In this document: positions 11,482 through 50,661 of the stretch, piece by piece
Layout: each line of letters starts with the position of its first letter
Numbering within the stretch: the stretch's first letter is position 1
Origin: Sinohyriopsis cumingii
Lineage: Eukaryota > Mollusca > Bivalvia > Unionida > Unionidae
Assembly: GCA_028554795.2 (NCBI GenBank)
Contig: CM068832.1
Coordinates: 84,549,049-84,613,048 of the forward strand
Direction of reading: 5' to 3'
Length of the DNA: 64,000 bases
Translations under genes and position numbers: made by a program
Notes under the pieces: model-generated
Databases searched by the model: none
Seen by the model: only the letters and a program-made list of their open reading frames with translations
What the model was told of the DNA's origin: nothing

Positions 11482-11762
11482 AGTAAGTACTGTTAGATTT
11501 ATTATATCTGTTTAGCAACTTTATTTCTCCATACTTTAAAATGTCTCATCACTTTCCATTGGCATTAAGTAATTTGACAAGTAGAAATAAGAGAAATATA
11601 ATTCCACAGAATTTGAAAGCATTTTTTTCTTCAGAAAAACTGTATCGAAGTGCTCTGAATCGATGTTTGCCAGAACTATTAAGGGATTTGGATTTTAATG
11701 CTGTCTTCCATTACATTCAGGAGAAAGAACTTTTTCATGATGTGACATTGCGTGACATCACG
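11482..11762 (+). CDS. CARD-repeat gene, exon 1: first half of a CARD domain
   Basis: The start codon at 11541 opens a 74-codon stretch ending in phase 0 at acg|gtaagaaac (11763), a strong donor. Upstream, a pyrimidine-rich tract ending cttacag (11481) would be an acceptor, and an in-frame TAA comes right after it, so 11482-11540 is probably 5' UTR of the same exon and ATG 11541 is the first usable start. Residues about 34-74 (LYRSALNRCLPELLRDLDFN, then VFHYIQEKELFHDVTLRDIT) have the helix pattern of the N-terminal half of a caspase recruitment domain (leucine-rich amphipathic helices, then Asp-Leu before helix 3). The other half is in the exon at 29516, after a 17.8-kb intron. A split CARD joined in phase makes chance unlikely. 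Confidence 0.72.
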
Positions 11763-12820
11763 GTAAGAAACTAACAATATGCTCTTCAGCCAATCCTGTG
11801 GGACAAATACACTAAATATTAAATGCTTCATTTTCACGTCAGATTTTTGTTATGGATCAATGGTCTAGCATCTGATCTTCTATAAAGTAACAGCAGTTTT
11901 CCTTTCCAAATATTGGTTGTCAGAGCGTTACTAACATTAATTTGTAACTCACCTTACATGACAGACAAATTAGATATTTAGCAGATGATTTCTTTTATTA
12001 TCAAGATAATAATTGACATAAATCTATTACAACTACGTGAATAAAAGCAGCATCAACAGCAGCATCTGTATGGTTAAAGATGTTTATAAAATTGTTCATT
12101 TATCATGTACTCATCATCCATCAAGTAACAATTTCGGTTACATTAGGAATTTACAGAAAGTCTCATGGAATATTTTCTTAGTATTTTTTAAGATGTTAGT
12201 GACCATTTACAATTAGCACAAAACAACAAAAGATATATCATTGTTTCATGTTCCATTAATTTGGTATTAATACTTTATTAAGGTAGAAAATGTAACTCGT
12301 GTAACAGGGACAGACAAACAAAATGTTATTTCTCTGTTTAAAATTCATAAAATATTTGGGAGCCAGCAGTTGGCAGGTTTTGTGCTTGAAGTAGCTGTAC
12401 CACATCTGTTGATAATATTTTATATTCAGCTTCTTTATTTCCCTTTAATTTGCCAACTTTCTTGGAAAATTTGGCTGGTAATACTGATATAATCTAAAAG
12501 CAGTAATTATTAGTTATTTAGTATGTTGGGTCTGTAATTTTATTAGTATGTACTTTCAAATATTGATATAGTCGTATAGTTATATTTTGATGCATTATTT
12601 TCATTTGCAATATATAATGATGATTCTTCATGCGCTTCTTGGCTTTTATGTATCTTCAATGGCATGCCAACATGCTTAGGGTGTCTTCTGAACTAAGCAC
12701 TTGATGCCCAAGGAAACATTTTGGTCCTTATGGTTGATCTGATGCTGCTGTTGCTATAGAGTCTCTTGACAGTACTCACTCAATGTGATTGCTTTCAGAA
12801 TCTGATTTTAAGAAAAGTAG
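11763..12820. other. Start of intron 1, no gene seen
   Basis: A+T-rich intronic sequence after the donor at 11763. I saw no exon, repeat array or RNA gene before the LTR-like copy that begins at 12821. Confidence 0.4.
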
Positions 12821-13719
12821 TGTTATATTTGTTATGTATATTTAATTTAATTATTTGTTTGTTATTTTTTTTAAATTCTGTTACATGCTATTGTAATGTA
12901 ACTTTGTTTACTGGATTTGATATTGCCTAGAATAGAATTCAGTTCTGACTGATTTTTTTATATTTTTGATGCAAATAACTAATAATAGAAACACTGTATC
13001 TAGTTTCTGACCAGGATTCAGAACCAGTGACAGTTGTAGTAAACAACTTTTTCTTTTCTTTTTCTTTCTCAGAGTAAGATTCATTAAGTTGAATCAAGGT
13101 CAGACCTTGAGTACATGATATTAAACATGTGTTTATTGTTACAAACTTCTGAATTTTCTAGAAGGTTGATCAATATCCAGGAATCTGTTTTTTGTGTCTT
13201 AGTTAGAATTATTACTGATGTATTGAGAAAGAATAGTCAGTCGTGCCTTAACATTCGAGATGTCAAGTTGTTTATGTTGTATCCAGCTTGGGCTAATTAT
13301 TTTATTTTCTTCAAATTATTTTGAATTCAAGTGATTCTTTTCCCAGGAAATCCCAATGCTCTAAATTAGTTCTTGGACAAGGACATTTATTAAAATTTAT
13401 ACAGAATTCAAAAACTGGGATAATATTTTCTGAGATTCAACAAGACACTGTTGACACTGCAGCATTTTGCAGGTTACAACATACATCATTGTCTTCCATT
13501 TTGGATTTTGCCAGGATTCGAACTCAGTTTCATTCAGGACTTTTTATTACTTCTGTTTTTAATTCTTGGATTATTTTTGGATTTGATTCATAAAACGGTA
13601 AATTTTTTTCTCATTTTTCACTTGATAGTCTGAGGAAATAAATTATTTGTTTAATTTTACAAAGCTTGTTGTCTTCACTTTTGTCCTGTTACTTTCTGTA
13701 AGAGCTTAGACTTGTAACA
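12821..13719 (+). mobile_element. Solo-LTR-like repeat, copy A
   Basis: About 0.9 kb, starting tgttat and ending gtaaca, collinear throughout with copy B (20480-21397). Shared blocks include ttctgttacatgctattgta, aataatagaaacactg, cagtaaacaactttt, gatgtcaagttgtt, ggattatttttggatttgat and aaataaattatttgtt followed by acaaagctt. An AATAAA-like signal near the end fits an LTR polyadenylation region. No coding internal region or clear 5-bp target duplication was seen, so it is called solo-LTR-like. Confidence 0.6.
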
Positions 13720-15145
13720 TATTGTGTAACTTTCCTAGACAAAAGAGAAGAATCATGTAACTATGACTGTTAATTTTGTTCCATAAATGTTACATGAGAT
13801 GCACATGTTAATGAGAAGTAATCAAATTATCTACAATCCTTAATTGGAAATGTGGTATTTATTTCAGTTTAATTAGGTGCATGTGAATGTTATATTCTTA
13901 AAATAACAATACACAAGAATCACTAAACAGTAATCAGATTTTATGACTGGCTTTTTTGTTCCATGAGTGTCATGTGATTCACACACAGGTTGGTCAGAAA
14001 TAAAAATGTTGATTTACTGCAAAAAGACTTAATGTCAGTATTAAGGCTACTTTCAGCTGTGTCAATAGGATAAATTGGTATAGAATTTCTGTTCTTTTTA
14101 TTAACATTACAGCTGTATATGTACAACAACGTAACATGGACAACTTTTCCAGTCCCTAAATATAACTGGTTTTGTTGTCAGTCATGAATGACCATCTTGA
14201 GAATGCAGAGACAATACTGGTATTTCCTCACCGAATTCTTTCATTTTAATGGTCGTAATGTTGCCTATTTGTAATTATAGAAAAACTATTAATGTTAAGT
14301 CTATTTGTTACCCATTTAAAGAATTTTCTTATTTTGTCACATATATCGTAACTTGCCAGTTCATTTAACAGTCACATAACATCCTTATGGACATCCTTAT
14401 GGTCAACTGTAACAACCTCTGCTGATTTTTGACAACAGGATAGCAGGTGTGACATGTGCAAACTAAATTTTGGTCACCTAACGGTTAAAGCAGACAGACA
14501 TTGACAGTCTGTCACTAAATTCATAAATTCATCAAATGTTGACCATTTAAAAGCATTTAAGTTTTCTTTATTCAGACACAATATAAAATAACTCCACAAT
14601 GCACATCATTTAATTTACTGAAAGTATTATGACAGGGCAAGTCATTGAACATCACATAACCAGTCAGCATAATGCATTACATGTAACAGTGGGGTGATAA
14701 AAATTAAAGTTTTTAACATTAGTTTTCCAACCAACAAGACAATTTTTACAGGTTAGAAATCAGAATACACAAGTTTGTACCAAACATCCCTAGCTTTAAA
14801 TATTTGCAATGATAAAGAAAAGCTATTTTAATTTCTGTATGTAGACAAGTAATGTCCCATTTTGATATGTCTGAAATGTAGTATTTTCAGAAATGACAAG
14901 AAATTAATAATTTACAAACACATATTTTATGTCAAAACTCAGTCTTTATTATAACAGTAGCACATGAATTAATAAGTAATATTTATGAGTAATTAAAGTC
15001 CTAAATGCTTTTTGCAGCCTCTTTTCAACAAACACTGACATCTGACAGTAGACTCTACACACAGCCAAGAATTAATACTACTTCATTATTGGATGAAAAT
15101 ACATAGAAGATTTTTATCATATGATTTTGTGATGGGTTTGTGTAT
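13720..15145. other. Intronic sequence, nothing recognised
   Basis: No coding frames with splice sites, tandem repeats or RNA genes were seen. Composition is like the rest of the intron. Confidence 0.35.
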
Positions 15146-15149
15146 ATTA

Positions 15150-16118
15150 TACAACCCATCACATGTACTTTATGTGGTGGATTTAAGATTGATATACAGG
15201 GTATCACTTGGGTGATATGCAACCTATCACATGTACTTTATGTGGTGGATTTAAGATTGATATACTACCTGTTATTTGTACTTTATGTGGTGGATTTAAG
15301 ATTGATATACTACCTATTACTTGGGTGATATGCAACCTATTACTTGTACTTTATGTGGTGGATTTAAGACTGATATACTACCTGTTATTTGTACTTTATG
15401 TGGTGGATTTAAGATTGATATACTACCTGTTATTTGTACTTTATGTGGTGGATTTAAGAGTTATATACAGGCTCTCACTTGGGTGATATGTAACCTATCA
15501 CATGTACTTTATGTGGTGGATTTAAGATTGATATACTACCTGTTATTTGTACTTTATGTGGTGGATTTAAGACTGATATACTACCTGTTATTTGTACTTT
15601 GTGTGGTGGATTTAAGAGTTATATACAACCTATCTCCTGTACGTTATGTGGTGGATTTAAGAATGATGTTCAAGCTGTCGCTTGGGTGATATACAACCTA
15701 TCACTTGTACTTTATGTGGTGGATTTAAGAGTGATATACAACCTATCACTTGTATTTTTTTGTGATGAATTTAAGAGTGATATACATCCCATCACTTGTA
15801 CTTTTTGCAATGGATTTAAGGGTGATATACAGTCTATCCTGTGTACTTTTTGCAGTGGATTTAAGAGTGATATACAGTCTATCACTTGTACTTTTTGCGA
15901 TGGATTTAAGAGTGATGTACAACCTTTAACTTGTACTTTTTGCAGTGGCTTTAAGAGTGATATACAACCTGTCACTTGTACTTTTTGCAATGGATTTAAG
16001 AGTGTCACAGCCTATCACTTGTATATTTTGCAATGGATTTAAGACTGATATGCATCCTATCACATGTACTTTTTGCAGTGGATTTAAGAGTGATACACAT
16101 CCTATCACTTGTACTTTT
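15150..16118. repeat. 45-bp minisatellite with two unit classes and a palindromic insert
   Basis: About 20 units of roughly 45 bp built on cctatcacttgtactttatg followed by tggtggatttaagagtgatatacaa. The left half has the tttatgtggtgg class, the right half the ttttgcagtgg class. Several left units carry an extra segment with the inverted repeat tatcacttgggtgata. Because the unit is 15 codons without stops, long frames such as 15599-16042 (CTFCxGFKSDIQ repeated) arise automatically. Confidence 0.92.
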
Positions 16119-16788
16119 GTAAATCACCTGGCCATAAGATCATGCTAGCATATAATGTTCGGACTGCATAGCTTTCCATGTGCCATAACAAAAGTATGAT
16201 TTTGGGGCCTATCTAAAGTTGGTATCTTTCATCTGAACTCATTTAAGTTTCTGTTAAATATTGATGCTTCCAAAATTTAAAATATTCTTCTTAAATTGGA
16301 AACAGTGTGAATGCTTTCCAAATCTCTGCTTTTCACTGGGTTTTTTTTTCTGTATTTTTTCTGTTAATTCATTTCTTGATGTATAGATAAATTGCATAAG
16401 TTCATATAAAATGTGGCATCATTAGGACAAAGTTGAAGTTGAAGAGAATTGAATGTACCAAACAATACACAGTGCATAAAGTTAATTTAGTGATAGTGTG
16501 GGCAAAATATTTTGGACTATATTATATACCTTTGGTAAGGCTGTTCAAGGACAAATTATTCAGTGAGTATTTTGAGAGAACTTTTAAAGTTTTTCGGCTA
16601 AGCCACCACACTGTTTAGCATCACTACACACACATGCTTAGACACACAGCTGATTTGTTGCAGTAGCTTAGCTGGCCTAACTTGGTCAAGTTTACCTTAG
16701 CTTATGATACTGGGTCTACAGACTTTCCACTACCTATGGGGAACAGAGACCTAGTTGATATTAGTGCTGGTTGATTGGTCTGTTGTTT
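16119..16788. other. Intronic sequence, nothing recognised
   Basis: No feature was seen between the 45-bp array and the SINE. The frame at 16433-16618 has no splice context or recognisable motif. Confidence 0.35.
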
Positions 16789-16801
16789 ATATTACTCCCC
16801 A

Positions 16802-17040
16802 GTGGCCGAGTGGTCTAAAGCACTCATCGTTCCGGATCACTGCCATCTCACCTCTGCCTTTGTGGGTTCGAGTCCAAGGTTCGGCTAGCGTGAGTACGTG
16901 GGAAAGCCTGCCAGTAGCTTCTCGTGGGTCGGTGGTTCTTCCCTGGGTTTTCCAGGGTTCTTCCTCCACCAGTTATACTGGCCACCATGTATAGACTATC
17001 TTGTGCTGAAAAATGGCATTAAACCCTAGAACAACAACAA
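16802..17040 (+). mobile_element. tRNA-derived SINE (family 2) with 13-bp target-site duplication
   Basis: The head is gtggccgagtggtctaaagc (A-box region of a Ser/Leu-type tRNA), with a B box gggttcgagtcc at about 16864-16875. A body with gtgggtcggtggttcttccc follows, ending in an aacaacaacaa tail. The element is flanked by atattactcccca at 16789-16801 and 17041-17053, a 13-bp direct repeat. A second copy of the family lies inverted at 22268-22521. Confidence 0.93.
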
Positions 17041-17059
17041 ATATTACTCCCCATTTCAA

Positions 17060-17420
17060 AGAAAAGCATTGAACATGATATGTTTTTGTTCATCCTTCTG
17101 TACATCCGACTTTTTTCCACTCTATAACTTTAAGACCATTTGTGACAAAAGACTGAAACTTGGCACACATATTATTAGAAGGTATCAGATGTCTTATCTT
17201 TAGGGTCAAGGTATGACTTGTAGCTTAAGTCTTCTGTCAGCTTTCATTTCAGGTCCATAACGTTAAAGATATTCAAGGTTAAAGGATGAAACTTGGTAGT
17301 CATCCTTAGCAGATGTGTTGTGAAAAACTATACTGGGGGTTCTTTTTTCATGCTGAAGGTCATTGTTTAGCTGTTTTTCACACTCATTGCACATTACCTA
17401 CTACTTCAATACTTCAAAAG
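17060..17420. repeat. Probable dispersed repeat
   Basis: Text of the kind that recurs within itself: gactgaaacttggcacacat near 17151 and ggatgaaacttggtagtcat near 17284, with ataactttaagaccat and ataacgttaaagatatt as paired partners. This suggests two diverged units of about 130 bp. No gene. Confidence 0.35.
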
Positions 17421-18479
17421 CATTTGAAATCAAGGGATGAAATTGGTATACTTGTATTTTAATATCAGTAATATCTTACCTGCTGGTATTGCACTTTCCA
17501 GGAGGAAAGTGCCTGACTGAGTGACTGAAATTTGTCTTCCCATTTGTGTAAACCAGAATCTTCCTGAACACATAATAAGTCCCTGTGTTAGAGTTCCATA
17601 CATTGGATATGCATGAAGGATGATCTCATATTTTTCAGTCGCCATGTTGTACATTTTGGTACTTTACATTTCCGTTCTGTAAGGGTGTTACTAATTCAGA
17701 TTTGTTGTTTTATTTGTATTTAAATAAAATTTCTAAGCTGCAGTGGTAGGTATTTTATTTGAATTTCCCTATCCTTGCATTTTTGCCATCTATGGACTTG
17801 CTTGACAGGAGAGGGCTTTCTTGGTGTACTGTGCAACCCTGATGACCTTGTGGATTTATTAGAAGTACTTGTGGGATCAGTTCGTGTCAGTGGTTGCTTA
17901 CCAGCCAAAACATAAGCTTCCATGAGTAAAGTTAGATGAAAAAATCTTGCAAAAACACCTGAGGGAAACAAAAGCATCATACACCTGCAACCTCCACCAG
18001 TAACACCAAAATGTACACAGGAAGAAGATGAACAAGTTAGCTTGATAAGAGAACAAGTACAACAGTAGCACCAGCAATTCGTGTGCTGTGTGAAATTTAT
18101 GCATACATTCAATAGCTGGTTGTAAATACAACCTAGAGCATGATCTCAGTGATCACTATCTCCTTCATGAAACCAGAATTCAGTGTGATGTTTTCTGCAC
18201 CTGGACTGCTGGGGACTCACGCACACTTGATATTGCACTAGCAGTGCTGCAGATGTATTATTGCTGGCCTAATATCCGGTTCCAACTGTTTGGTGTCTGG
18301 TTGCTAACAATTTGTTTGTGTTTTCAGCAGACATGGGTGCCAACTGGCATACTATCAAACTTCCTCCGCCATGTATGACATAGAATTGATAAATGAAGAA
18401 ATTCAATGAAGAATTTCAATAGTGAATGGCAAATGTTAAAATAATTTCTATGCGTGCTTATGAGCCCACACTCTGTTAA

Positions 18480-19080
18480 GTCATTGCTATCGAATCTCAA
18501 ACTTATGCTGAGGATATTACATGGTCGTTGATAAGGTCAGTGTTAGGTTGGCCTAGCCACATTCCAGACATTGTGAGAATTATGTCAACAACGCATGTTA
18601 ATCTAACTTGTGATGCTGTCAGTGGCAGTTGAGAAAGCAGGTCCAACACAACAGGTGTAGTTGTACAGGGTTATATTCTGTCTGGGTTTTCACCTGCCAT
18701 AGAACCAGTTGACTTGATCTCAATTATGTCTGCAGCACCTGAGTATCTTCCTTGCCATAATAATCGGTTGACCCCAATTCATTTTTCCATGGATCAAGAC
18801 AGGCATGTGGTGGATCTCCATGATGCAAAATTGACGATAGAACTGTACATTAGAGATTGGCCTGACATTTTATAACCTTTTACCTCATGTAAGCGCCTTT
18901 GGACACCTGTACCTTTGGAATCCTCTACCTGCTGTAAACATCATCCATTTTGAGCTGGTTTTCATAGCACCACCTTCAGGGATAACCTCCTATTAGATAC
19001 TGCATTCGTTAATGTGAATGACCATTATGTCAGATCACGTGGTCACTGTTTAAGATCTGGTTGTAATCTGCTATTTAAAG
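18480..19080 (+). pseudogene. Decayed virus-like capsid (jelly-roll) protein, N-terminal part
   Basis: A frame open from 18480 to TAA 18873-18875 has only one internal stop (TGA 18630-18632). It contains EYLPCHNNRLTPIHFSMDQD and HVVDLHDAKLTIELYI, the kind of N-terminal strands seen in capsid proteins of Polinton-like elements (the F54H12.2-like family named in animal genomes). Beyond the stop, in other frames, pieces such as PAVNIIHF (about 18935-18960) and VNDHYVRSRGH (about 19014-19045) continue the pattern of a PVN..LHSLF..VNG block. It lies upstream of, and in the same orientation as, the better-preserved capsid remnant. It may be the minor capsid (penton-like) gene, but this is judged by eye from weak similarity. 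Confidence 0.42.
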
Positions 19081-20086
19081 TAACTGGGTCATATTCTTCA
19101 CTCTCCAAAATGGAGGCTGCAGATTTTTTTCAATACTTTCTTGAGTTTGCATGATTAGAATCACAACTATGAAAGCTTAAATAACTTAAGTAAAGGCTCT
19201 CATATTGATATAGACAGCAATTAGTTTTGATAAATTATCAAAATCAGATGATATAGTAATGTAGATGCAAGGAACATGTAAATTTTGAGTATGAGAAATG
19301 GTTGGTCACATGGCTTCACTAGCTTGACGGTTAACGATGTTCTCTCAAGATTTTAAAGTGCATAAAAACTTTTCCATGAAAAATAATTATAGAGCTACAA
19401 CAATTGGATTTTACTCTTATATCTTTCTATACATAATAGATGTGTATCAAAAGTGCAAAATGGTTAAAATTGATGTTAAATGTAACATATACTACACTGC
19501 TTAACAGTTAACAGGCAGGCCTATCTGTATGGAGTCAAACAGGTAACAGGTGTTCTGTTTATAGCATAATGTAGAATGTAACTTTGATACATGTACATGA
19601 ACTGGCTAAAATGCCTTACACTCTATGAGATAAAGGGATAACAGCAACAATGACATTTGTGCAAGGATGTGAAAAAGAAATTAACGCGAGAATACCTGTG
19701 TACATGACTATTGGGGAACTGGGCTTGGTGATGTTGGTGGATTATTTACCGGTGTACTAAAAGCATTCACAGCCTAAATATTATCATATGCTGCTCCCAC
19801 TGGTAAGCAAGTTACAGTGCTGGTTGTGGATGGTGTTAAAAGTGCCTCTGGATCGATTAAAACGACTTGACTCGCAGGCAGCTCAGTCTCTTTGAGATCG
19901 AATACAATGATTAGCAGCGTGAGCACCATCCACAAAAGTTGCATTGCCATTGACAGAATAAATGCCACCTGCAGTTAATAAAATCATTAACGAGGCCATC
20001 CAACAGCGATTTTCAGATTCAGTGATTGCAAATCTGGCTATGGGAAGTGGATTTACATGGTATTAAAGAAAATCAATGATGTGTAA
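19081..20086. other. Sequence between capsid remnants, possible further viral debris
   Basis: From about 19640 to 20060 the plus strand has short stretches that look like broken coding sequence in shifting frames (for example GDVGGLFTGVLKAFTA near 19730 and INEAIQQRFSDSVIANLAMG near 19990). Small glycine-rich core proteins often precede capsid genes in such elements, but I cannot assign this one. 19081-19640 holds nothing recognised. Confidence 0.3.
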
Positions 20087-20410
20087 GTGAAAACCAAATG
20101 TTTATGCAATGGCTCGATCAAAGAGACATTTAATCCAGCATTTGACATGGGAGTGCCTGTGTTAGTGGGTCGAAGCAAGAGGGAGTTTCAGTATTACTGC
20201 AGAGACCCCAATCAGTTTAAAATAGAATTACAAGTGCAAGACATATCTAGATTTTTCTTTCCATATGAGGCATTCATGGAAGTTGAGGAAAAACTGGTAT
20301 GCGAGAACAATGCCAATTATGATGCTAATGCCATAGTGGGATTTGTTAACAATGGCATCATGGTGTTGTCCAACAGTGCACGTAACTCAGACCTGCCATT
20401 ACCCATCTGA
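20087..20410 (+). pseudogene. Major capsid protein remnant, N-terminal part
   Basis: An open stretch of 107 codons ends at TGA 20408-20410. YCRDPNQFKIELQVQDISRF, FFPYEAFMEVEEKLV and AIVGFVNNGIMVLSNSA fit the beginning of the double-jelly-roll capsid protein found in Polinton/adintovirus-like elements of animals (strands, then a VNN..M.LF block). The continuation of the gene is displaced to about 23690-24780; between them lie a solo-LTR-like copy, a LINE fragment with a nested SINE, and a minisatellite. Assignment rests on motif pattern and on the convincing C-terminal half downstream. Confidence 0.55.
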
Positions 20411-20479
20411 TTTTTCCATAAGTCTTTACAGAAATTGTGCTTAAAATATGTACTTGCAGAATAAAAGCACAAATTACGG

Positions 20480-21397
20480 TGTTACCTATATCTGAATTAA
20501 TTTATATTTGATTTCATTTAATTGTTTGTTGGTTAGTTTTAAAATTTTTTATTCTGTTACATGCTATTATAGTGTGATCTTATTTATTAGATTTTCCATT
20601 TTTTTAATAGAAAATTCAGTTTGTCCTGAATTTTTTCATAAACACCTAATAATAGAAACACTGTTTCTATTTTTGACTTAGTTTCCGACCTTGGTTCAGA
20701 AATCACTCAGTGGAGTAAACAACTTTTTAAAAATTGTATTCTTAGAGTAAAACGATTGGTTTTTGTCAGGGTCATATTGGGAGTACGTGACTTTAAGATG
20801 TAAACATGATCACTTGACCCTCTATTTTGCAATCCAGGCTTTTCTGTAATTGTGCAGAATTTAGATTTAATAGAGATGTTTAGAGAGAAATTTTATAGTT
20901 TGGGCTTTTGACACTTGATGTCAAGTTGTTTTCTTCTGTTGTGACAGGTTTGAGTTTTCTTCTGATTATTTGGATTCTAAAAGATTGATTCGTTTCTCTG
21001 GAAATATTTGAGTGCTCATACAGAATTCTTGGTCAAAGACATTTCTTGAAATTTTATTCGAATTCAAACACTGGAGCGTTATTTCTTGTGGTTCTACAAG
21101 GAACTGTAGATAACAGTACTATACAGGTTACAGCATATGTCATCACCTTCCATCTTGGATATTCATCAGGACTTGAACTTGAATTCATTAGAATATTTTA
21201 TTACTAGGACTTATAAAATTTAATTCTTGGATTATTCTTGGATTATTTTTGGATTTGATTCTTAAAACCGTAAGTTCTTTTTTTTAATACATTTTTACAT
21301 TGTTTTCCCAGAGAAATAAATTATTTGTTAAATGTTACAAAGCTTGGTGTTTTCACTCTTTTTTTGTTACTGTTTATTAGAGCCTAAACACGTAACA
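20480..21397 (+). mobile_element. Solo-LTR-like repeat, copy B
   Basis: It begins TGTTAC and ends GTAACA, a perfect 6-bp terminal inverted repeat of the TG...CA type. It is collinear with copy A at 12821-13719 with visible divergence along the whole length. It lies 70 bp after the N-terminal capsid fragment and is one of the insertions that split that gene. Confidence 0.62.
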
Positions 21398-21628
21398 ATG
21401 GAAATATGTTTGTTTGCAGTATAATCCAGATACTGGCTTGTCCTTGTTTCATTCAGATCTGGGTTGCATATTAGATTCAGTAGAATTGGTCAGGGAACCA
21501 TCTTTACTGGTGTACCTCAGATGTTTTAAACAGCACATATTTTCTGATTAAAAAAATCTGCATGGTCAAGCTATTGTTTTTCTCTTGTTTTGTTTTTTTA
21601 AATGGTGTCGAACAAGTGAGCAGTTAGG

Positions 21629-22803: not shown

Positions 22804-23081
22804 ACAGTACAGAAGAATAAAATGTAATATTCAGATTCTTGGGGGAAGAAGAAGGAAGGGCAATAATTACTTTATGTGGAAATCATGAGTTGATTTTAGT
22901 ATGTCACATGACGGGAAAGATGGTTGCTGTTGCCACAGCTTTTCTTTTTTAAAGGATTACATCAAGCTGAAAGATGTCAAGAAGCTATTTAGCTCTCTTA
23001 TGGTTTGTAACTGCAGTTTGTGAAAAAACTGTGCAGGAGGTAATTAGGGTTAAAGTAAAGTTGACAAACTTATGAGCTGAA

Positions 23082-23580
23082 CATTGGTTTATATGCCTTG
23101 TACCACACCTCTGGACTTATAAATACCATTGGTTTATATGCTTTGTACCACACCTCTGGACTTATAAATGCACATGAAGTTTACCATTGGTTTATATGCC
23201 TTGTACCACACCTCTGGACTTATAAATGCACATGAAGTTTTCCATTGGTTTATAGGCCTTATACCACACCTCTGGACTTATAAATGCACATGAAGTTTAC
23301 CATTGGTTTATATGCCTTGTACCACACCTCTGGACTTATAAATGCACATGAAGTTTACCATTGGTTTATAGGCCTTATACCACACCTCTGGACTTATAAA
23401 TGCACATGAAGTTTACCATTGGTTTATAGGCCTTATACCACACCTCTGGACTTATAAATGCACATGAAGTTTACCATTGGTTTATAGGCCTTATACCACA
23501 CCTCTGGACTTATAAATACACATGAAGTTTACCATTGGTTTATAGGTCTTGTACCACACCTCTGGACTTATAACTGCACA
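23082..23580. repeat. 58-bp tandem repeat, about nine copies
   Basis: The unit is accattggtttatatgcctt followed by gtaccacacctctggactta and taaatgcacatgaagttt. The first copy is short (no gcacatgaagttt), the last ends in a T run. Copies differ mainly at tatgccttg or aggccttat, which groups copies 4 and 6-8 together. Confidence 0.93.
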
Positions 23581-23689
23581 TTTTTTTTTTGAGCTTGACA
23601 ATAGCAATACATTATATTTTGTTGCACCTTACTGAAAACTGGCCCAGATTTTGGAAAAAAATTGGCTGCCTTAATGAGAAGGTCATGTT

Positions 23690-29515: not shown

Positions 29516-29660
29516 GAGCAGGGAACAACATCAGAGAAGATAGAGAGACTTATACAAGAGGTTCAGCAAGGAGGTCAGAATATCTATGAAATGTTTAAAG
29601 AATGTTTGGTCCTGGCCAGACAAAAATATTTAAAAGATATGTTGGAAGAAAAGGAAGAAG
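29516..29660 (+). CDS. CARD-repeat gene, exon 2: second half of the CARD domain
   Basis: The acceptor ttattttgtag (ends 29515) is followed by 48 codons plus one base and the donor gaag|gtacca (29661). The exon starts in phase 0, matching exon 1, and ends in phase 1. It reads EQGTTSEKIERLIQEVQQGG, then QNIYEMFKECLVLARQKYLK and DMLEEKEE. The TTSEKIERLIQ.V...G...Y..F...L segment is the classic C-terminal half of a CARD (helices 4-6). Joined to exon 1 the domain spans about residues 34-118. The single G left over completes a Gly codon with the GT that opens the exon at 46853. Confidence 0.78.
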
Positions 29661-30184
29661 GTACCATAGTTATGGATATACTTTGGTTTTTAGCTCACTG
29701 GGTTGTAAAGCAGTTTATGTTATTATCATGCATCTGTCATTTGTCATCCATTTTGTATTTGTCAACAGTTACTGTTTTGACCTTACTTCTCAAAATACCA
29801 GTAGCCAATTTCAGCTAAACTTAGCAGGTAGTATTTTGGCAAAAAGATTTTATATTTGTTGTTCTATGGTACAGCACTGCAAATAGGTTATTTAGTGTTG
29901 AGGAAATTGGAATAAAGTGCCGTATTCAAAGACATGTCACAGTAGCTGACTCAAGCCATTTCTATAAGAATGGGATCCACATTTGTCTCTTCATTTGAGC
30001 CAATTCTGGAGTTATCTGGTTACACCAAAATGAGGAATCTTTGTACTGGCATTAAATATTGTGTAAATCGGCATGGTCTATATGCTTTGCAAAATATGTA
30101 GAAGTAGAAAGTGGCATCCATCATATATTACCAGTTACATAAATGAGGTGGCATTGTGCTGATCGTGTATAAGACACTTATACC
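29661..30184. other. Start of intron 2, nothing recognised
   Basis: No gene, array or RNA gene was seen in this 0.5-kb stretch after the exon 2 donor. Confidence 0.35.
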
Positions 30185-39720: not shown

Positions 39721-39993
39721 TAATTTATTTGTATCAACTGAAACCCACTAAATTATGGCACCAGGGGCCATTATAGGTCAATATGTTGTTTTGTAATGTG
39801 CATTATTGGTATCCATGCACATTAGTCATACTTTTATCATGATTCTGGATCAGGCTTTTTATATTCCTATGGGCTAAGCAAATGTGGTTTAGGATCAGAT
39901 ATATTATACCCGTTTTGGCAAACCAACTGTATTTGGATCAGGTCTGTTATACCCCTATGGTTTGGGATCCTATTGATTATTACCCCAATGGGT

Positions 39994-40520: not shown

Positions 40521-41032
40521 AGATGGGGTAAAATGTGCTTGGGCTTAGCTTGGACAACATTTACATTGTTCATGGTATAGAGGACAATCTATTCATTGCA
40601 GGCGGTACTCCAATAATAGTTGTGTTGTTTATATTGATCACATGTGAATTGATGTCATCAACCCACTGCCATACCCATTTAATCTTACATCACTGATGTG
40701 GTATTCAAAACAATGTTCAGTACATACTTCTGGATCACATGGTAATACCCAGAATGGAACTATTTTAGTATCTTTTGGACGTCTACATATTGACATTTTA
40801 CAATACAGTAAAGCAAACTTTTATTCTAATTTCATTCATGCTGTGAAGCTGAAAATATGCTAAAAGCATAAATTAAGGGATGCATAATAAACGCAAGACT
40901 GCATTCATGTCTTGTTCTGAGTTGAGAATAGAACTTGTTCAATATAGTTGATGATTGTCTTGTCTTAATGATTTTACACCTTATCAAACATTCTTTTCTC
41001 CTGTTGCAGCATAACATGCAAGTAGGATTGCT
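40521..41032. other. Non-coding stretch, nothing recognised
   Basis: A+T-rich sequence with no feature that I can support. Confidence 0.35.
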
Positions 41033-41060
41033 TTTGTGTGTGTGTGTGTGTGTGTGTGTG
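41033..41060. repeat. (TG)n microsatellite
   Basis: About 13 TG dinucleotides in a row. Confidence 0.95.
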
Positions 41061-41261
41061 CATAATATATTCAAGAATTTGACACACATTAATAATGTAC
41101 ATAAAGTGTTCATTCTAAAAGTACAGAAGTGGAGCTTAATGGGCCCTACGAATTCAAAAAGTTGTCATTTAGGTAAAATGGTGATGCAAATTCTCTTAAC
41201 TTCATCATTTTGCTTCAAAAAAGTCATACACATATCATTATCACATGTAGTCCGATTGTGG

Positions 41262-43399
41262 ATTTATTAATTTCTGCAATAAATACAAACACCAAATTAC
41301 ACCCAAGTGGATTACCCCTGAGATCAATGAGGCTAGGCACCTAAGAGATAATTTCCACAAGAAAAAATACATGAAAAGCTATAGAAAGTGGAGAAATAAA
41401 ACTAAGCCCCTGATAGATAAGGCAAAAGAGAACTACTATAAACAGGCTATTAAAGAAATTAAGAGTACCAAAACATTGTGGAAGCATCTAAAAGAGCTGA
41501 ACCAACCCAAGAACAGTTGTCTTTTCCTAGACTTGAGCAAAATGATGATATAGCAACATCTGTACAAGACATTGTGGAAATGTTCAACAATTTCTTCATA
41601 AGCATCTCCAGTAACAGAATTCAGAACCAGACTAACATCCCAATTGAACCTGATGCTCTTCTATTATTTATAAGAGCTAAAATTCCTGATGATAATTATT
41701 TTTCAGTAGTTAATGTTAGTGAAGCTGATGTTTTTGATATGCTAATTAAGGTTAACATTAATAAATCCTCTGGATTGGATGGTATTGGTCCACGAATTCT
41801 TAAAATTGCTGCACCAGTAATAACAAAGTCACTAACGCATATCATAAATTTAAGTATAATGAGTGGTAATTTTCCAGAAACACTGACATGTGCAAAGGTT
41901 ACACCTATCTTTAAGAAAGGAGAAATGGAGGATCCAGGAAATTACAGACCAATATCAATTCTACCTGCATTGTCAAAACTATGTGAAAAGCATGTAGCCA
42001 TTCAGGTCTATAAATTTTTCAAAACATACTCTCTATTTCATAAAACGCAATCTGGATTGAGAAAGTATCACTCGTGCCAAACAGAACTTACCAAATTAAT
42101 TGATCTTTGGCTGAAGGAAAAGGAAAATGGACATATGACTGGGATTGTTTTCCTTGACTTCAAGAAAACCTTTGATCTTGTTGATCATGAAATTCTGCTG
42201 CTAAAGTTGAACTGTTACAGGTTTGACAATCCTTCTTTAAACTGGTTTAGATCATACCTAAACCAAAGGTCTCAACAAGTCAGCATTGGCAATATTAGCT
42301 CTCAAACTCGCACTATTCATTCAGGAGTCCCTCAAGGCTCAGTTTTGGGCCCTCTCCTCTTCCTTATCTATATCAATGATCTACCATTAAATAATGAATC
42401 CACAAACACAGATTTGTTTGCAGATGATGCAACCTTGTATACATCTAGTTCTCATACTGAAGTTATCCAAATGAGATTAAATTCAGACCTTATTAGAGTC
42501 CAAAACTGGGCACAACAAAATAGGATGGTAATTAATGAAGGTAAAACAAAATGTATGATTTTGGGGACATCACAAAAGTTACACAAGTCAGGGAACCCAA
42601 AACTATCTCTTGCAATAAATAATCATCCATTAGAAAATGTCAAACATGAAAGGCTTGTAGGTGTGTCTGTAGATAATAATTTATTATGGAATGACCATAT
42701 TGATAAGCTTTGTAAAACACTGTTATCCAAAATTGCCCTTCTCAGCAGAATCAAGAAATATTTACCTATAGAAACTCGCAATCTATACTACAAGTCATAT
42801 ATTCTTCCAACAATGGATTATTGTTCTAATGTATGGGGAAACTGTGCTAAATCTGAGCTTGACAGGATTTATAAACTTCAGAAACGAGCAGCACATGTAA
42901 CTTTAGATGCATCTGTTGATCATCCCTCAAAAGCATTATTTACAGAACTCAAATTGTTCACAATATACGACAGGATAGATTTTCACAAGGCAGTTATTTT
43001 ATATAAATGTCTACATGAAACTGCACCAGAGTATCTTCAGGACTTATTCAGGCCTTTTTCAACACAATACCAGTTGAGATCAATATCACATGGAAACCTT
43101 CTAATACCAAAACCAAGAACAGAGCAATTTAAAAAGAGTTTTCAATACTCTGGTACAGTTCTCTGGAATAAGCTTCCACTACATGTAAAATCTGCTGAAA
43201 ATATTAGAGTATTTAAGAAAAGATATCATGAGCATGTATGTATTTCTAATAGATAATGGAATTTAGTAGTTTAATACTAAACATGTTAAAATAAACACTA
43301 ATTATTGCTATCTCATATAATGTGCATTGTTATACTCTCCTTAAGAGGGCCTCAAGGGAGAATAGTCCTTGACTAATGAGTCACTCTCTATAAATAAAG

Positions 43400-43430
<31 letters not shown>
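41262..43430 (+). mobile_element. 5'-truncated CR1/L2-like non-LTR retrotransposon with nearly intact reverse transcriptase
   Basis: Coding starts abruptly near 41262 in the linker (ITPKWITPEINEARHLRDNF), shifts frame once near 41520, and then continues as a 592-codon frame 41478-43256. RT motifs in order: KVTPIFKKGEMEDPGNYRPI (about 41896-41955), FLDFKKTFDLVDHEIL (about 42151-42198), GVPQGSVLGPLLFLIYINDL (about 42325-42384), FADDATLY (about 42418-42441; the catalytic box is FADD instead of YADD), then HERLVGVSVDNNLLWNDHID and YCSNVWGNC of the C-terminal domain. The 3' UTR ends in an (ATT)n tail at about 43404-43430, as in CR1/L2-type elements. The endonuclease is missing. This is the youngest LINE in the window and shares its 3' half with the copy at 21629. 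Confidence 0.9.
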
Positions 43431-43434
<4 letters not shown>

Positions 43435-45560
43435 GCTTTAAATTAATTACAATTTCTTTTCTGACCACTTTGAAGGTCACAGTTAATTTGGGGATTGACC
43501 ATTTAATTTTTAGAGGAGATGAAAGAGGGTGGTGAGATGTTATTTCCACCCATGATATTTTTCCAGATTATATTTTGAATTATGTTTTTAATCCCTGTAA
43601 ATAAAATGGGAATAAATTATGCAGTGTTTTTACTGAAGATTTCATCTTTTTTCTTGTTTCATTTTCAGTAGATAATCATAGAGCATGTGATTAAATTAAT
43701 CAAATTCAGTAAGATATTTCTATAAGCCAATGAAATTGGTAGCCATATGTTTCTTTGGTTATGATCGCACTCTATTCAGTAAGCATGGGATTCAGTCCAG
43801 TATAAAATCAGTTTATCTGTTTTCTCAGGCACATTTAATGTAACCTACAGTGTCATGCAGGGAGAATATTCATTCACCAAAATGAAGAATAAGGGTCAAA
43901 CTGTCATTGGTGTAAGGATGTAGTCTAGAATGAAGATTGCATTCCTGTACATTATTTTGCATAATTAAGGCTCAATGTAAATTTAGAGAATTTTCAATAT
44001 GTTGATCCAAAATTAGAAATGAAATAAATTCACTTATTATTGCATACAGAATGACTTCATTTTCTTATTATTTAGTCATGTTTTGAGACTGTGATTAAAT
44101 CTTGAACCATTTAGTTTTTTTTCTGTCTGTACAAGTTATCTCAGTTAATGTAGCAGTCCTAATACTATGGTCAATATCAAATGTGCTTCTTTACATTTAT
44201 TAGCTCTGTATTGATATTACAAATGCACAGTAAGTATTTAACCTTAAGTTGAAACCTGTCTTGAGGGGAAAACCCTTCTCCCAATCAAGAATGGTCTCTC
44301 AGGATGTGTGGTCTTTCATTAGAGGTGATAAAAATAAATGATACAACTGATCTTTGCATAGAAAATCAGGTCTTTCATAACAGGTGGTCTTCCAAAACAA
44401 TGTTATTTCAAGACAGATTTTATTTACAGTAGATTTAAGAATGACGACAAAATTTTATATATTTCCTGAATAATTATAACTCCATCTAAATTCGAAGAAA
44501 TTTTCAAAATCTTTTTCAAAAATGAATGTAAAACTTTGTTATTATTTTATACCAAAGTGTATTTGTTTTATTATTTCATATCAAAGTGTATTTGTTTTAT
44601 TATTTCATACCAAAGTGTATTTGTTTTCTGATTATTAAATCTGATGCTTCTGGTTCTTTTAAATCATCCGTCAGTCTCACATATATCCTTTGATACATGT
44701 AGTAATGACTGGTACTTGATGTTTAACAATTGCCAGACAGTACTCTGCAGTCCATATTAACAGTGATTAATACAGTTGGATTTTAGTTGGGTATACAGTT
44801 TTTATTGTACATACATTTATTATATTAGCTTGTCTTGTATTTATCCACTTCTGGAAAAATTTACGTTTTTCTTTATTTCCATGCTTTATTGTAAGAATAT
44901 GTTCATACCCTCTGTCTGTCCATTCATCCATCTGTCCACCAACAACACTCTCCTAAGTTACTTAGAGGAAATTAATTATGGTACACAACTTATTCCTTGC
45001 ATGACAATGGGTATACAATACATTTAAGTTTACTTTTGATGGTCCCTGGGAGGTAGTCAAAGATCATAATGTGAAAAATGATGAAATTATTTGAATGCTA
45101 CTTGTCAGAATTGTACATGCATATCTTGGAGAAAGATACTTCCTACAATGAAATCTTTATAAGTGAGTCTCCAAAGGCTAGAGCTAGCTGTAATATAGAG
45201 ATGACCAGTTTATGGATGTTAATTTTGTACAAAAATGTATTTGGTATTGTAAAATGTGGTTTCTATATAAAACTGGCTGTTTTAAAGATGTGACTGTTAA
45301 AGCTGGATTCACTCAATGTAAACGTACTTTGGATTACAACCATCATGTCACAATTTGGAATTAGCGACTAGGATTGTGGGAGGTAATATGTCATAAAAAT
45401 TGTAAAGATTTGCCATGGTGGGCAATAGAAGCAGCCCAAGGTTTTGGGTTCTTTTAGCTCTAATGGACATAGACCAGAAGAACTGTATGAATTAGTCCAT
45501 TGTATGACCATTGTCCAGTCATCCATCCATCCATTAGCACAAGTTTGTTAACCCTACTCA
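43431..45560. other. Intronic sequence with minor repeats
   Basis: No exon seen. There is a 35-bp triplet at about 44545-44630 (accaaagtgtatttgtttta repeated). A possible small inverted-repeat element at about 44235-44425 has 9-bp ends ctgtcttga/tcaagacag. Confidence 0.4.
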
Positions 45561-46650
45561 GCATGAACTATTTAAATGGTTGCTATGAAGCTGTACATGC
45601 ATTCATCCCATGGTCTAGATGGTCCTGAATGAAAATAGTGCCACTCAGACATCCAATATGGCTGTGGCAGTGACTGTCTTGAAAATCTTGTAACTTACTA
45701 CTCCTCCTGTGTTGATGTTCTGATCAGGGTTTTCTCTAAAAGACTTCATTTGATGTCTAGTTGGTCCTTAATAAAAATGGGTCTGATCTGATCATATAAC
45801 TGCTTCTGAATGGAAAGCCAGATTGATGTGGGGTTTTACCAGAAGACTTCTTATGTTGTCTGGTTGGTCACAGATGAAAATGGTGCTGAACTGACACCCT
45901 ATGGGGCCATCATGAAAATCCAATTATCGCTGCTTCTCCTGAATGGCTGGTGATATGATGGTTTTCACTGAAAGATTTCTAATGATTCCTTGTTGATCTT
46001 AAATGAAAATAGTGCCAATCTGATGTTCAATATGGCTGTTCAAGTGGCCATCTTGAAAATCTTGTTAATGCTAATTTTCCTGATTGAAAAGTAATATTAC
46101 CATCAGGTCATTACTGCAAATACTTATTACGATGTCCGAGTGGTCACATATGAAAGGGTGCTGATCTGTTATTCGATAAGACTGCCACATCCTTCTGACT
46201 GGATGTTACTGTCAATGTGGAGGTTTTACTTAAGAATTTCTTATGTTTACTTGGACATTCAGTATTCTTGATAATCTTGTTCTCAATATTTATCCTGAAT
46301 CAATGCTTATATCTGCATGGGAGTTTCACTGAAGGACCTCTGATTATGTCTCTTTGGTCGTAAGTGAACAGTTTGCCAATCTGACTTTTACTATGACTGC
46401 CACAATGGCCATCCTGAAATCTTCTTACCTCTACTTCTCCTAGATGACTGATCTTATGAATATTAGTCTTTCACCAAAAGACTTGATATAATGTTTTCTT
46501 GGTAACAAATATAAACGGTGCCAGTCTGATATTGAATATAGCCACCATCTCATCAATCTAGAAAATCTTGCTACCATGGCTCTTTCTAAACATAAAGTCA
46601 TCAACATGAGGTTTACACTATAAAATTTCTTATTATAATGCTTATTGATC
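45560..46650. repeat. Diverged ~170-bp satellite (family S2), about seven units
   Basis: Units share the blocks aatatggctg, cc.tcttgaaaatcttgtta, tctcctgaatg, ttttcactgaaagactt, ttggtc.taaatgaaaatgg and tgccaatctgat. It lies directly before the acceptor of the large repeat exon. Confidence 0.6.
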
Positions 46651-46852
46651 TTAAAATGGTGCCTTTATAGCGGCTAATTTGAAAGAATTCTTTAAAGATG
46701 GTTTCAATGCTCTGTAGTTAAAAGAATGAAAAGTCTTTTGTTGAATACCTAGAAGTTCTTGTCAGTCACCTCATGATACTCTTGTTGTTTCTATAAGGAA
46801 GGCTGTAATACATTCTTTTATATCTTTTCATTGAATCTTGCATTTCTACTAG

Positions 46853-49800
46853 GTCAGACTGAGGACATGCTTTATACAAATAGGATGCTGGGATACATTC
46901 CAACAACGCAGGCTTATTTGGAACAAATATATGATGTGTGTGATCTGCTGGTTCAGGAGAGAGTCTCACTGACAATGAAGAATCTTCCAGTTATAGTAGA
47001 TAGCTATCAGGTATCATTGGAAACTGTTAAGAAAGCAGTGAAACATTTGAAAGATACTGACAATTGGGATCCAAAGTGTGATGATGCATCTGAAGCATTA
47101 CAATCAGCTTGTTTGACCCAAAAGTATGATGTGTGTGATCTGCTGGTTCAGGAGGGAGTCTCACTGACAATGAAGAATCTTCCAATTATAGTAGATAGCT
47201 ATCAGGTATCATTGGAAACTGTTAAGAAAGCAGTGAAACATTTAAAAGATACTGACAATTGGGATCCAAAGTGTGATGATGCATCTGAAGCATTGCAATC
47301 AGCTTATTTGAACCAAAAGTATGATGATTGTGATCTGCTGGTTCAGGAGGGAGTCTCACTGACCATGAGGAATCTTCCAGGTATGGTAGATGGATTGAAT
47401 GTATCATTGGAAGCTGTTAAGAAAGCAGTGCAACATTTGAAAGATACTGACAATTGGGATCCCAGAAGTAAGTATGCATCTCAAGCATTGCAGTCAGCTT
47501 TTAAGGGACACAAGTATAATGTGTGTGATCTGCTAGTTGAGGAAGGAGTCTCACTGACAATGAAGAATCTTCCAGATTTGGTTGGTGGGTTGGAGGTATT
47601 GGAAGGTGCTGAGAAAGCAGTGAAACATTTGAAAGATACTGACAGTTGGGATCCAAAGTGTGATGATGCATCTGAAGCATTACAATCAGCTTGTTTGACC
47701 CAAAAGTATAATGTGTGTGATCTGCTGGTTCTGGAGGGAGTCTCACTGACAATGAAGAATCTTCCAGTTCTAGTAGATAGTTATCAGGTATCATTGGAAA
47801 CTGTTAAGAAAGCAGTGCAACATTTGAAAGATACTGACAATTGGGATCCCAGAAGTAATTATGCATCTGAAGCATTGCAATCAGCTTTTAGGAGAAGCAA
47901 CAATAATGTGTGTGATCTGCTGGTTCAGGAAGGAGTCTCACTGACAATGAAGAATCTTCCAGTTATAGTAGGTAGCTATTGGGTATCATTGGAAACTGTT
48001 AAGAAAGCAGTGAAACATTTGAAAGATACTGACAGTTGGGATCCGAAGTGTGATAATGCATCTGAAGCATTGCAGTCAGCTTATTTGACCCAAAAGTATG
48101 ATGTGTGTGATCTGCTGGTTCAGGAGGGAGTCTCACTGACCATGAGGAATCTTCCAGGTATGGTAAAGGGATTTAATGTATCATTGGAAGCTGTTAAGAA
48201 AGCAGTGCAACATTTGAAAGATACTGACAATTGGGATCCCAGAAGTAATTATGCATCTGGAGCATTGCAATCAGCTTTTAGGGGAAACAAGAATAATGTG
48301 TGTGAACTGCTGGTTCAGGAGGGAGTCTCACTGACAATGAAGAATCTTCCAGTTATAGTAGATAGCTATCAGGTATCATTGGAAACTGTTAAGAAAGCAG
48401 TGAAACATTTGAAAGATACTGACAATTGGGATCCAAAGTGTGATGATGCATCTGAAGCATTACAATCAGCTTATTTGAACGAAAAGTATGATGTGTGTGA
48501 TCTGCTGGTTCAGGAGGGAGTCTCACTGACCATGAGGAATCTTCCAGGTATGGTAAATGGATTTACATTGGAAGCTGTTAAGAAAGCAGTGCAACATTTG
48601 AAAGATACTGACAATTGGGATCCCAGAAGTAATGATGCATCTGGAGCATTGCTATCAGCTTTTAGGGGACACAAGTATAATGTGTGTGGTGTGCTGATTC
48701 AGGAGGGAGTCTCAGGAGTCTCATTGACAATGGAGAATCTTCCTGATATGATATCGGTATCACTGGATTGTATGAAGGTATTAGTGAAACGGTTGCAGGA
48801 TGCTAACAGTTGGGATCCTGGGTGTTATGCTGCATCTAAAGCATTAAAGTACGCTTATTTGAAACAAAAGTATGATGTGTGTGATCTGCTGGTTCAGGAG
48901 GGAGTCTCACTAACAATGAAGAATTTTTTAGATTTTTTTGGTGGGTTGGAGGTATTGGAAGGTGCTAAGAAAGCAGTACAACATTTGAAACATCATTATG
49001 AGTGGAATCCCAGAAGTACTGTTGCATCTCTAGCATTGCAATCAGCTTTCATTGGAAACAAAAATAATGTGTGTGATCTGCTGGTTCAGGAGGGAGTCTC
49101 ACTGACAATGAAGGATCTTTCAGTTATAGTAGATAGCTATCAGGTATCATTGAAAACATTCAAGAAAGCATTGAAACATTTAAAAGATACATTCAATTGG
49201 GATCCGAAATGTGATGATGCATCTGTAGCATTACAATCAGCTTATTTGACCCAAAGGTATGATGTGTGTGGTCTATTAGTTCAGGAGGGAGTCTCACTGA
49301 CCATGAGGAATCTTCCAGGTATGGTAGGTGGATTTAAGGTATCATTGGAAGCTGTTAAGAAAGCAGTGCAACATTTGAAAGATACTGACAGTTGGGATCC
49401 CAGAAATACTTTTGCATCTCAAGCATTGCAATCAGCTTTTAGTAGAAACAAGAACAATGTGTGTGATCTGCTGATTCAGGAGGGAGTCTCACTGACAATG
49501 AAGACTCTTCCAGTAATAGTAGATACCTATCAGGTATCATTGGAAACTGTTAAGAAAGCATTGAAACATTTTAAAGATACTAACAATTGGGATCCAAAGT
49601 GTGATGATGCATCTGAAGCATTGCAGTCAGCTTATTTGAAACAAGAATATGATGTGTGTGATCTATTATTTCAGGAGGGAGTCTCACTGACCATGAGGAA
49701 TCTTCCAGGTATGGTAGATGGATTTAAGGTATCATTGGAAACTGTTAAGAAAGCAGTGCAACATTTGAAAGATACTGACAGTTGGGATCCCAGAAGTAAT

Positions 49801-50661
49801 TATGCATCTGGAGCATTGCAATCAGCTTTTAAAGGACGCAAGTATGATGTGTGTTTTCTGCTGATTCAGGAGGGAGTCTCAGGAGTCTCATTGACAATGA
49901 AGAATCTTCCTGATATGATATTCGCACCACTGGATTGTATGAAAGTATTAGTGAAACAGTTGCAGGATACTAACAGTTGGGATCCTAAACGTTTTGATGC
50001 ATCTGAAGCATTACGATTAGCTTATTTGTACCAAAAGTATGATGTGTGTGATCTGCTGGTTCAGGAGGGAGTCTCAGTGACAATGAAGAATCTTCGAGAT
50101 TTGGTTAATGGATTGGAAGGTTTTAAGAAAGCAGTACAACATTTGAAAGATACTGACAATTGGGATCCCAGAAGTAATGATGCATCTATGGCATTGCAGT
50201 TAGCTTTTAGGGAAAGCAGGTATGACGTGTGTGGTCTGCTGATTCAAGAGGGAGTCTCAGGACTCTCATTGACAATGAAGAATCTTCCTCATATGATATT
50301 TGCATCACCGGATGATTTGAAAGTATTAGTGAAACAGTTGCAGGATACTAACAGTTGGGATCCTAAGTGTTATGATGCATCTAAAGCATTACAGTACGCT
50401 TATTTAGAACAAAAGTATGCTGTGTGTGATCTGCTGGTTCAGGAGGGAGTCTCACTGACAATGAAGAATCTTCCAGATTTGGTTAATGGGTTGGCGGTAT
50501 CATTGGAAGGTGTTAAGAAAGCAGTACAACATTTGAAAGATACTGACAATTGGGATCCCAGAAGTAATTATGCATTTAGAGCAGTGCAGTCAGCTTCTTT
50601 GAAATGCAGGTATGATGTGTGTGATCTGTTAGTTCAGGAGGGAGTCCCACTGACAATTTAG
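46853..50661 (+). CDS. CARD-repeat gene, exon 3: 19 ankyrin-like ~66-residue tandem repeats
   Basis: The acceptor catttctactag (ends 46852) opens a 3809-bp exon in phase 1, as exon 2 requires. It ends at TAG 50659-50661. With exons 1 and 2 the coding length is 4176 bp (1391 residues). After a short linker come 19 full repeats and a partial 20th. The consensus unit is YDVCDLLVQEGVSLTMKNLP, then a variable loop, VKKAVKHLKDTDNWDP and ASEALQSAYLTQK. ALQSA......YDVCDLLVQEGVSL resembles one ankyrin repeat, and the other half (VKKAVKHLKDTDNWDPK) a second divergent one, so 66 residues is about two 33-residue modules. Units fall into three classes: PKCDD, PRSNY, and a class with a duplicated GVS (EGVSGVSLTM, units 10, 16, 18). 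The CARD suggests an adaptor or sensor in immune or death signalling; the repeats probably bind a protein ligand. No NACHT or other ATPase was seen between. Confidence 0.8.

Follow-up and report, generated by a model that had tools for sequence, protein, structure and literature searches.

A giant ankyrin-like repeat exon behind split CARD exons in a freshwater mussel: a probable relative of STAND-type receptors that has lost its NTPase

What kind of gene sets a CARD, split over two exons, far ahead of one giant exon of tandem repeats, with no nucleoside triphosphatase (NTPase) between them? This arrangement occurs in a 64,000-nucleotide stretch of the Sinohyriopsis cumingii genome, here called the window (C9:84549049-84613048 of a 2.90-Gb genome in 1138 contigs; all other C9 coordinates lie on the same contig, and positions without a contig are those of the window). 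The first-pass annotation joined exons at 11541-11762, 29516-29660 and 46853-50661 and saw in their product an immune adaptor or sensor of unusual design. The join does give an open frame of 4176 nucleotides with phases 0 and 1, and the absence of the NTPase is real, but an independent CARD-and-ankyrin adaptor can be ruled out, since relatives of the gene have an nSTAND3 NTPase and exon 3 retains the head that precedes the P-loop. The gene is probably an NTPase-less member of a unionid family of receptors that combine HEPN and/or CARD, an nSTAND3 NTPase and an ankyrin-like array. It is still plausibly an invertebrate protein of immune type, with the layout of a STAND-type receptor minus the nSTAND3 NTPase and not a new design. 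The features that carry this reading are the following (a slash in a sequence marks a junction or splice point):

46853..50661, forward strand: exon 3, an open frame to the TAG at 50659-50661, with an acceptor common to relatives
46855..46913, forward strand: what is left of the nSTAND3 head (QTED...IPTTQA); in relatives this head lies just before the P-loop (tblastn with relatives P0006 and P0011-P0014, and DNA comparison)
46912..46914, forward strand: deletion junction at which the NTPase and first repeats were very probably lost in frame, CAGGC/TTATTTGG in the window and in its duplicate, L009
46930..50610, forward strand: 19 ankyrin-like double-repeat units of 61-65 residues (AlphaFold2 of units 1-5, fold comparison)
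50611..50658, forward strand: 16-residue stub of unit 20 (translation)
50662..50833, forward strand: decayed array tail past the stop, still open in L009
39608..52579, forward strand: duplicated segment, with its copy 395 kb away at C9:84982515-84996400; the right end is the limit of the compared stretch

Evidence for the loss comes from the beginning of exon 3. The exon starts QTEDMLYTNRMLGYIPTTQA, which aligns to the residues immediately preceding the P-loop in relatives, and its acceptor, AG/GTCAGAC, is common to 7/7 NTPase-bearing heads compared. In such heads the P-loop follows 19 residues past the TQ, and the first canonical repeat unit comes approximately 695 residues on in the loci L010 and L012. 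The window and L009 share ATTCCAACAAC, then G or A, then CAGGC/TTATTTGGAACAA across the junction, whereas the NTPase-bearing heads diverge past that point, reading CAGGC/A in six of the seven compared and CAAGC/A in the other. Neither the protein families shown for exon 3 nor the genome matches obtained at the window locus included an nSTAND3 with a P-loop. A 78-residue query spanning the junction (156 matches, with 150 of 910 candidates scored) matched over its full length only at the window and at C9:84990676 among the matches listed, all others listed beginning at query residue 16 or later. Because relatives carry the NTPase and its head is still present in exon 3, we ascribe the layout to NTPase loss, and it is very likely that the whole domain, about 2 kb, was removed by one in-frame deletion. 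That deletion predates the duplication of the locus.

The duplicate, L009 (C9:84986500-84996400), keeps an open frame of 1326 codons. Identity between the window and L009 is 93.0% over the intron and 3' flank and 87.2% over exon 3, the lower value arising because repeat units have turned over. Co-linear duplication does not extend to the CARD exons. Patches of the window just left of exon 1 (9126-11120) match C9:84964619-84966736 at 89-92%; a wider duplication, after which L009 lost its CARD exons, may have occurred, but parts of 9126-11120 also recur elsewhere in the genome. Within the duplicated segment, an open frame with a reverse transcriptase (PF00078, 108.7 bits; 41463-43256) belongs to an insertion (approximately 41287-43428) that is absent from the duplicate and that therefore either entered after the duplication or was lost there.

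The family to which exon 3 points was found almost entirely in unionids. The protein relatives first found were 7/7 from Potamilus streckersoni and Sinanodonta woodiana, and a search with the nSTAND3-bearing P0006 gave 12 proteins including the query, 11 of them unionid and one from Mizuhopecten yessoensis (25% identity). Among the Pfam domains listed for these 12, some of which begin inside the gene, nSTAND3 is present in 11, PF15112 in five (P0008-P0010, P0012 and P0015) and CARD in P0013. PF15112 is DUF4559 in the Pfam copy used, and UniRef names P0008 'DZIP3-like HEPN'. P0013 (P. streckersoni CHS0354_016526; UniRef 'CARD domain-containing prot...') is close in plan to the window gene, with CARD exons 55% and 50% identical, the same head before the P-loop and the same repeat type, but it has nSTAND3 (85 bits) and, between the counterparts of exons 2 and 3, a linker, RRKRPESDGLRQLRN, for which no match was seen in the window. 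The five PF15112 proteins, from Sinanodonta and Potamilus, have the same head and, in those read, the same repeats; unlike the window gene they carry an N-terminal PF15112 HEPN in place of CARD and have the NTPase. These repeats follow the nSTAND3 NTPase not only in two unionid species but also in the genome that contains the window, where the longest single open frames listed, 3105 codons at C17:20606000-20615700 and 2818 codons at C9:56764400-56772400 (minus strand), both carry them together with nSTAND3. The order CARD exon 1, CARD exon 2, giant exon was found in seven other loci, with phases and splice sites in agreement except for the exon-2 donor. Judged by these homologous exons, whose order and phase agree, the window gene descends from the unionid HEPN/CARD-nSTAND3-ankyrin family. 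The family gives a freshwater mussel a large set of receptors; none of the papers listed by searches of the open-licence literature was devoted to this unionid family. Four further nSTAND3 matches, at C9:84662297, 84683448, 84704591 and 84725739, lie approximately 21.1 kb apart with identical scores and one in-frame TAG each, and may have arisen when a broken copy was recently amplified in tandem, or may reflect a repeat in the assembly.

The array itself is as the first-pass annotation described it, a run of 19 full double-repeat units, here followed by a stub before the TAG. The TRF period of exon 3 is 195/390, the exon scores 94.6 bits against the ankyrin family PF12796, above the curated cut-off, and 35 of 35 array segments match ankyrin at E up to 0.1. 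Units 1-5 were modelled with AlphaFold2 (pLDDT 92.8, pTM 0.82) with four helices per unit, and the predicted fold places two ankyrin-type helix pairs in each, in a tandem helix-turn-helix solenoid. Matches of exon 3 to further Pfam families (MauJ, HEF_HK, GntR and others) were discarded as summed chance matches on a repetitive protein, because among the 25 families shown of 33 only Ank_2 had a stretch that reached the limit by itself, and phage records queried with two repeat units gave no match. The arrays compared have a fixed framework with variation at set positions, and units have been turned over between the two copies. When alignment columns are placed on the model of units 1-5, the variable ones sit near helix ends and turns, and they may face a binding groove.

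Is the array still a protein-coding sequence? All 14 insertions or deletions in exon 3 between the copies are multiples of three, compared with 9/24 in the flanks (Fisher p 9.7e-5). In a simulation that left unit turnover aside, 7.3 stops and 7.2 frameshifts were expected per lineage at the flank rate, and 0/4000 simulated lineages kept the frame. Using columns classed as framework or variable from 83 units of eight other loci, omega was 0.41 in the window (bootstrap 0.19-0.87) and 0.33 in L009 for framework columns, and 1.65 and 1.48, respectively, for variable columns (bootstrap 0.77-3.97). In the four closest unit pairs, the 30 framework columns carry 11 amino-acid differences and the 18 variable columns carry 20 (p 0.0026); when the 19 window units were each compared with the closest L009 unit, 55 differences fell on framework and 99 on variable columns. 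The whole-exon omega between copies, 0.587, is not relied on because the units are out of register. Pooled over units, omega was 0.875 (171 unit pairs), and 1.33 in the four closest pairs; constraint therefore rests on the frame and the framework columns. By its pattern of change the array is probably coding, and there is good reason to expect that it is translated.

The features upstream of exon 3, and one beyond it, are these:

11541..11634, forward strand: first 31 codons of exon 1 as first annotated, probably intron; in-frame stops in 8/8 loci, with the acceptor at its end kept in 9/9
11635..11762, forward strand: probable extent of CARD exon 1, phase 1 in and phase 0 out, donor GTAAGA; PF00619
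29516..29660, forward strand: CARD exon 2, with its acceptor in 8/8 loci compared and the weak donor GTACCA of the first-pass annotation at 29661
29681..29683, forward strand: position at which the family probably has the 5' splice site of exon 2, C/TT in the window and G/GT in most relatives (GT in 8/8 loci)
51664..51669, forward strand: AATAAA, a possible polyadenylation signal read from the sequence

That exons 1 and 2 encode a CARD is well supported by sequence. PF00619 extends over both (29 bits, E 1.1e-6, curated cut-off 23.9), and the best seven PDB matches are CARDs of caspase-9 or of proteins named 'Caspase' (E 0.0015-0.0056); together with the match to P0013, whose own CARD scores 17.9 bits and so lies under the Pfam cut-off, these rule out chance resemblance. 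Relatives sought with the CARD region alone gave none at E 0.001 among 273 candidates, which is not evidence of absence, because P0013 aligns to the CARD and yet went undetected. Over the 88 CARD codons, omega between the window and five relatives was 0.36-0.81, within the 0.21-0.81 of the relatives among themselves; the selection test is uninformative for this reason, and the CARD cannot be called constrained from it.

The borders of the CARD exons were compared across eight loci hand-picked from 38 exon-1-like matches, six of which precede an nSTAND3 head and two of which (C504, C31) do not. The start previously placed at ATG 11541 was not borne out, since 11541-11634 aligns to stop-bearing DNA in 8/8 loci and the AG of the acceptor TTCAG/AAAAACTG, ending at 11634 in phase 1, is kept in 9/9 loci aligned. 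Exon 1 therefore probably begins at 11635, with residues 1-31 of the protein as first annotated falling in the intron, and a further upstream exon is required; the 5' end of the gene may lie outside the window. The junction of exons 1 and 2 is well supported by sequence conservation, with a phase-0 GTAAGA or GTAAGG donor and a phase-0 AG acceptor at 8/8 compared loci. At the end of exon 2, the donor GTACCA assumed earlier is not that of the family, as a GT stands at one aligned column in 8/8 loci where the window has TT (29682-29683); that GT is presumably the donor used in relatives. With donor scores computed from base frequencies, the aligned GT scores 0.41 to 4.6 in 7/8 loci and -7.41 in L029, where another nearby GT scores 5.8. 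In the window GTACCA has the right phase and the top score (-0.56) among 17 GTs scored around the end of exon 2. Splicing of exon 2 to exon 3 in the window is, on these sites, possible but unproven.

How such exons are combined elsewhere in the genome bears on the extent of the gene. Genome searches gave at least 105 matches to the nSTAND3 head, at least 84 to CARD and at least 129 to PF15112; pairing of loci used the best 53 of the nSTAND3 matches, all 84 CARD matches and PF15112 matches down to E 1.5e-13. Exon-1-like CARD matches have an exon-2-like match within 60 kb downstream in 37 of 38 cases, and one or both CARD exons precede eight of the best 53 nSTAND3 heads by no more than 80 kb on the same strand (both exons in seven). 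A PF15112 exon is upstream of 38 of the 53, or of 40/55 heads when the two NTPase-less ones are added, the remaining 15/55 having none within 150 kb. Split CARD exons of the same type with none of these heads within 80 kb, as at C14:120.68-120.77 Mb and C21:0.77-1.74 Mb, make up another gene set that bears this CARD. Left of the window, HEPN and coiled-coil exons lie at approximately C9:84519596-84525200, on the same strand and 41 kb upstream of CARD exon 1. HEPN exon B there keeps RNLLFH, which we take to fit the RxxxxH motif of HEPN RNases.

Several results weigh against an NTPase-less receptor relative that still uses its CARD. The exon-2 donor of relatives has been lost and its substitute is weak; neither the 33 kb ahead of the L009 exon nor its surroundings in the genome search yielded a CARD exon; and 67/84 CARD matches are not near (80 kb) any nSTAND3 head used. 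The window-specific CARD changes, 12 nonsynonymous and 4 synonymous, make relaxed constraint possible, a stop cuts the array tail relative to L009, the bootstrap interval for variable columns spans 1, and the pooled unit omega is high. We set the chance that the CARD is spliced to the array at about even. If it is not, the CARD exons could be relics and the gene a free ankyrin-like repeat protein starting from ATG 46867, perhaps with another 5' exon. This ATG, the fifth codon of exon 3, is in frame in both copies and is replaced by a lysine codon in 7/7 NTPase-bearing heads compared, and L009 keeps its frame open although no CARD was found there. An array-only gene nonetheless seems rather unlikely, as CARD exons 1 and 2 contain no stop, the acceptor and donor of exon 1 and the acceptor of exon 2 are kept, and a right-phase GT is present at 29661. 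Less likely again is a recent pseudogene, that is, a decaying broken receptor whose array is open through youth and repeat homogenisation. Three separate lesions relative to relatives (the deleted NTPase, the lost donor and the cut tail), the stop-bearing nSTAND3 copies nearby (C9:84.66-84.73 Mb) and a pooled unit omega near 1 would all be in keeping with decay, but both duplicates hold the frame against the stops and frameshifts expected, framework columns are conserved, and the differences between copies fall on variable columns.

The gene could also be larger than three exons, with HEPN, coiled coil, CARD and ankyrin array, but no NTPase, in one transcript; if true, a putative RNase would be tied directly to the sensor. 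The frequent PF15112 exon upstream of heads favors such a gene, as does its place ahead of the CARD at 8/8 loci where a head is preceded by CARD exon 1 (window included), and no other nSTAND3 head is listed between the upstream HEPN and exon 3, with the RNase motif retained. The distance of 41 kb and the annotation of P0013, a relative with CARD and NTPase, without HEPN speak against it, and the upstream HEPN belongs to the P0009 type (50.6%), its identity to the HEPN at the 84.34-Mb CARD locus being just 29.6%. Given this last mismatch, the upstream HEPN and the window exons may be one gene or two, and we regard a single transcript as no likelier than an array-only gene. It is highly improbable that the NTPase was merely dropped by mis-assembly of a repetitive exon: exon 3 is highly repetitive and the cluster does contain the regularly spaced, identically scoring nSTAND3 copies, but the same junction occurs in the duplicate, which lies 395 kb off and whose flanks have diverged by 7%, and the NTPase stretch lies outside the tandem array. 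We favor a member of the unionid receptor family that has lost its NTPase.

For such a member, a simple history would be that a single in-frame deletion of approximately 2 kb took the NTPase from an ancestral receptor, which was then duplicated, both copies keeping a long open array from which protein would still be made. The array would bind ligand through its variable positions and, having no nucleotide switch, could not open and oligomerise as its sisters presumably do. If the CARD is spliced on, the product would engage or titrate what its NTPase-bearing sisters bind, whether CARD partners or ligands. The simplest function would then be binding without switching, as a decoy or regulator, and we propose a decoy role only tentatively. 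More speculative, and in our estimation improbable, is that the mollusc evolved switch-free regulators by cutting the NTPase from a CARD-STAND-ankyrin receptor while keeping CARD and variable array, which would make them ligand-binding equivalents of the primate CARD-only decoys, or, if the HEPN exons are included, an RNase-CARD-sensor without a nucleotide switch. STAND receptors switch on by their NTPase, and a clean natural loss, duplicated and with approximately 1300 codons open in both copies, makes this pair a ready test of whether a recognition array works without the switch.

Known systems resemble parts of this arrangement. RNase L joins an ankyrin sensor to an HEPN-class RNase, but unlike the window gene it has no CARD and no STAND and its domains are in another order. 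STAND proteins have an N-terminal effector, a central NTPase and a C-terminal sensor (PMC12931631), and bacterial AVAST type 5 (Avs5) places nSTAND3 (PF20720) between effector and C-terminal repeat sensor (PMC12931631), as do the relatives of the window gene; Avs5 differs in its Sir2 effector and bacterial origin, and in having the NTPase that the window gene lacks. Lineage-specific expansions of bivalve TRADD-N proteins bring together death-fold, STAND, HEPN and ankyrin parts (PMC8195603). A model for a decoy is offered by the human CARD-only and Pyrin-only proteins (COPs and POPs), NTPase-less death-fold regulators of NTPase-bearing receptors, which unlike the window gene consist of a solitary domain with no repeat array (PMC3775265). 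COPs and POPs appear to be restricted to higher primates among eukaryotes according to that 2013 review, and a CARD protein has also been described from an iridovirus (PMC4457926).

P0013 has, upstream, an exon resembling a nuclear localisation signal, for which no convincing counterpart was found in the window; six matches occur in the genome, the best at C9:77371805 (E 1.1e-5). There a short open stretch (C9:77371805-77371897, minus strand) encodes TEGRKRSCHDDIDGPAPKRRILEPG, which looks like a piece of P0013 repeated twice, and weaker similar pieces lie at C9:56.63, 56.82 and C17:55.22 Mb; this type of piece is possibly an exon shuffled within the family. Elsewhere in the window, an integrase core (PF00665, 38.5 bits; 2025-2345, minus strand) and an A32-like ATPase (22.3 bits, below the 22.8 cut-off; 3079-3426, plus strand) are presumably remains of a Maverick/Polinton element. 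Minisatellite arrays with base units of 22-79 bases and multiples occur at 5836-6308, 15148-16118, 23082-23581, 52822-53451, 55850-56307 and 58714-59096.

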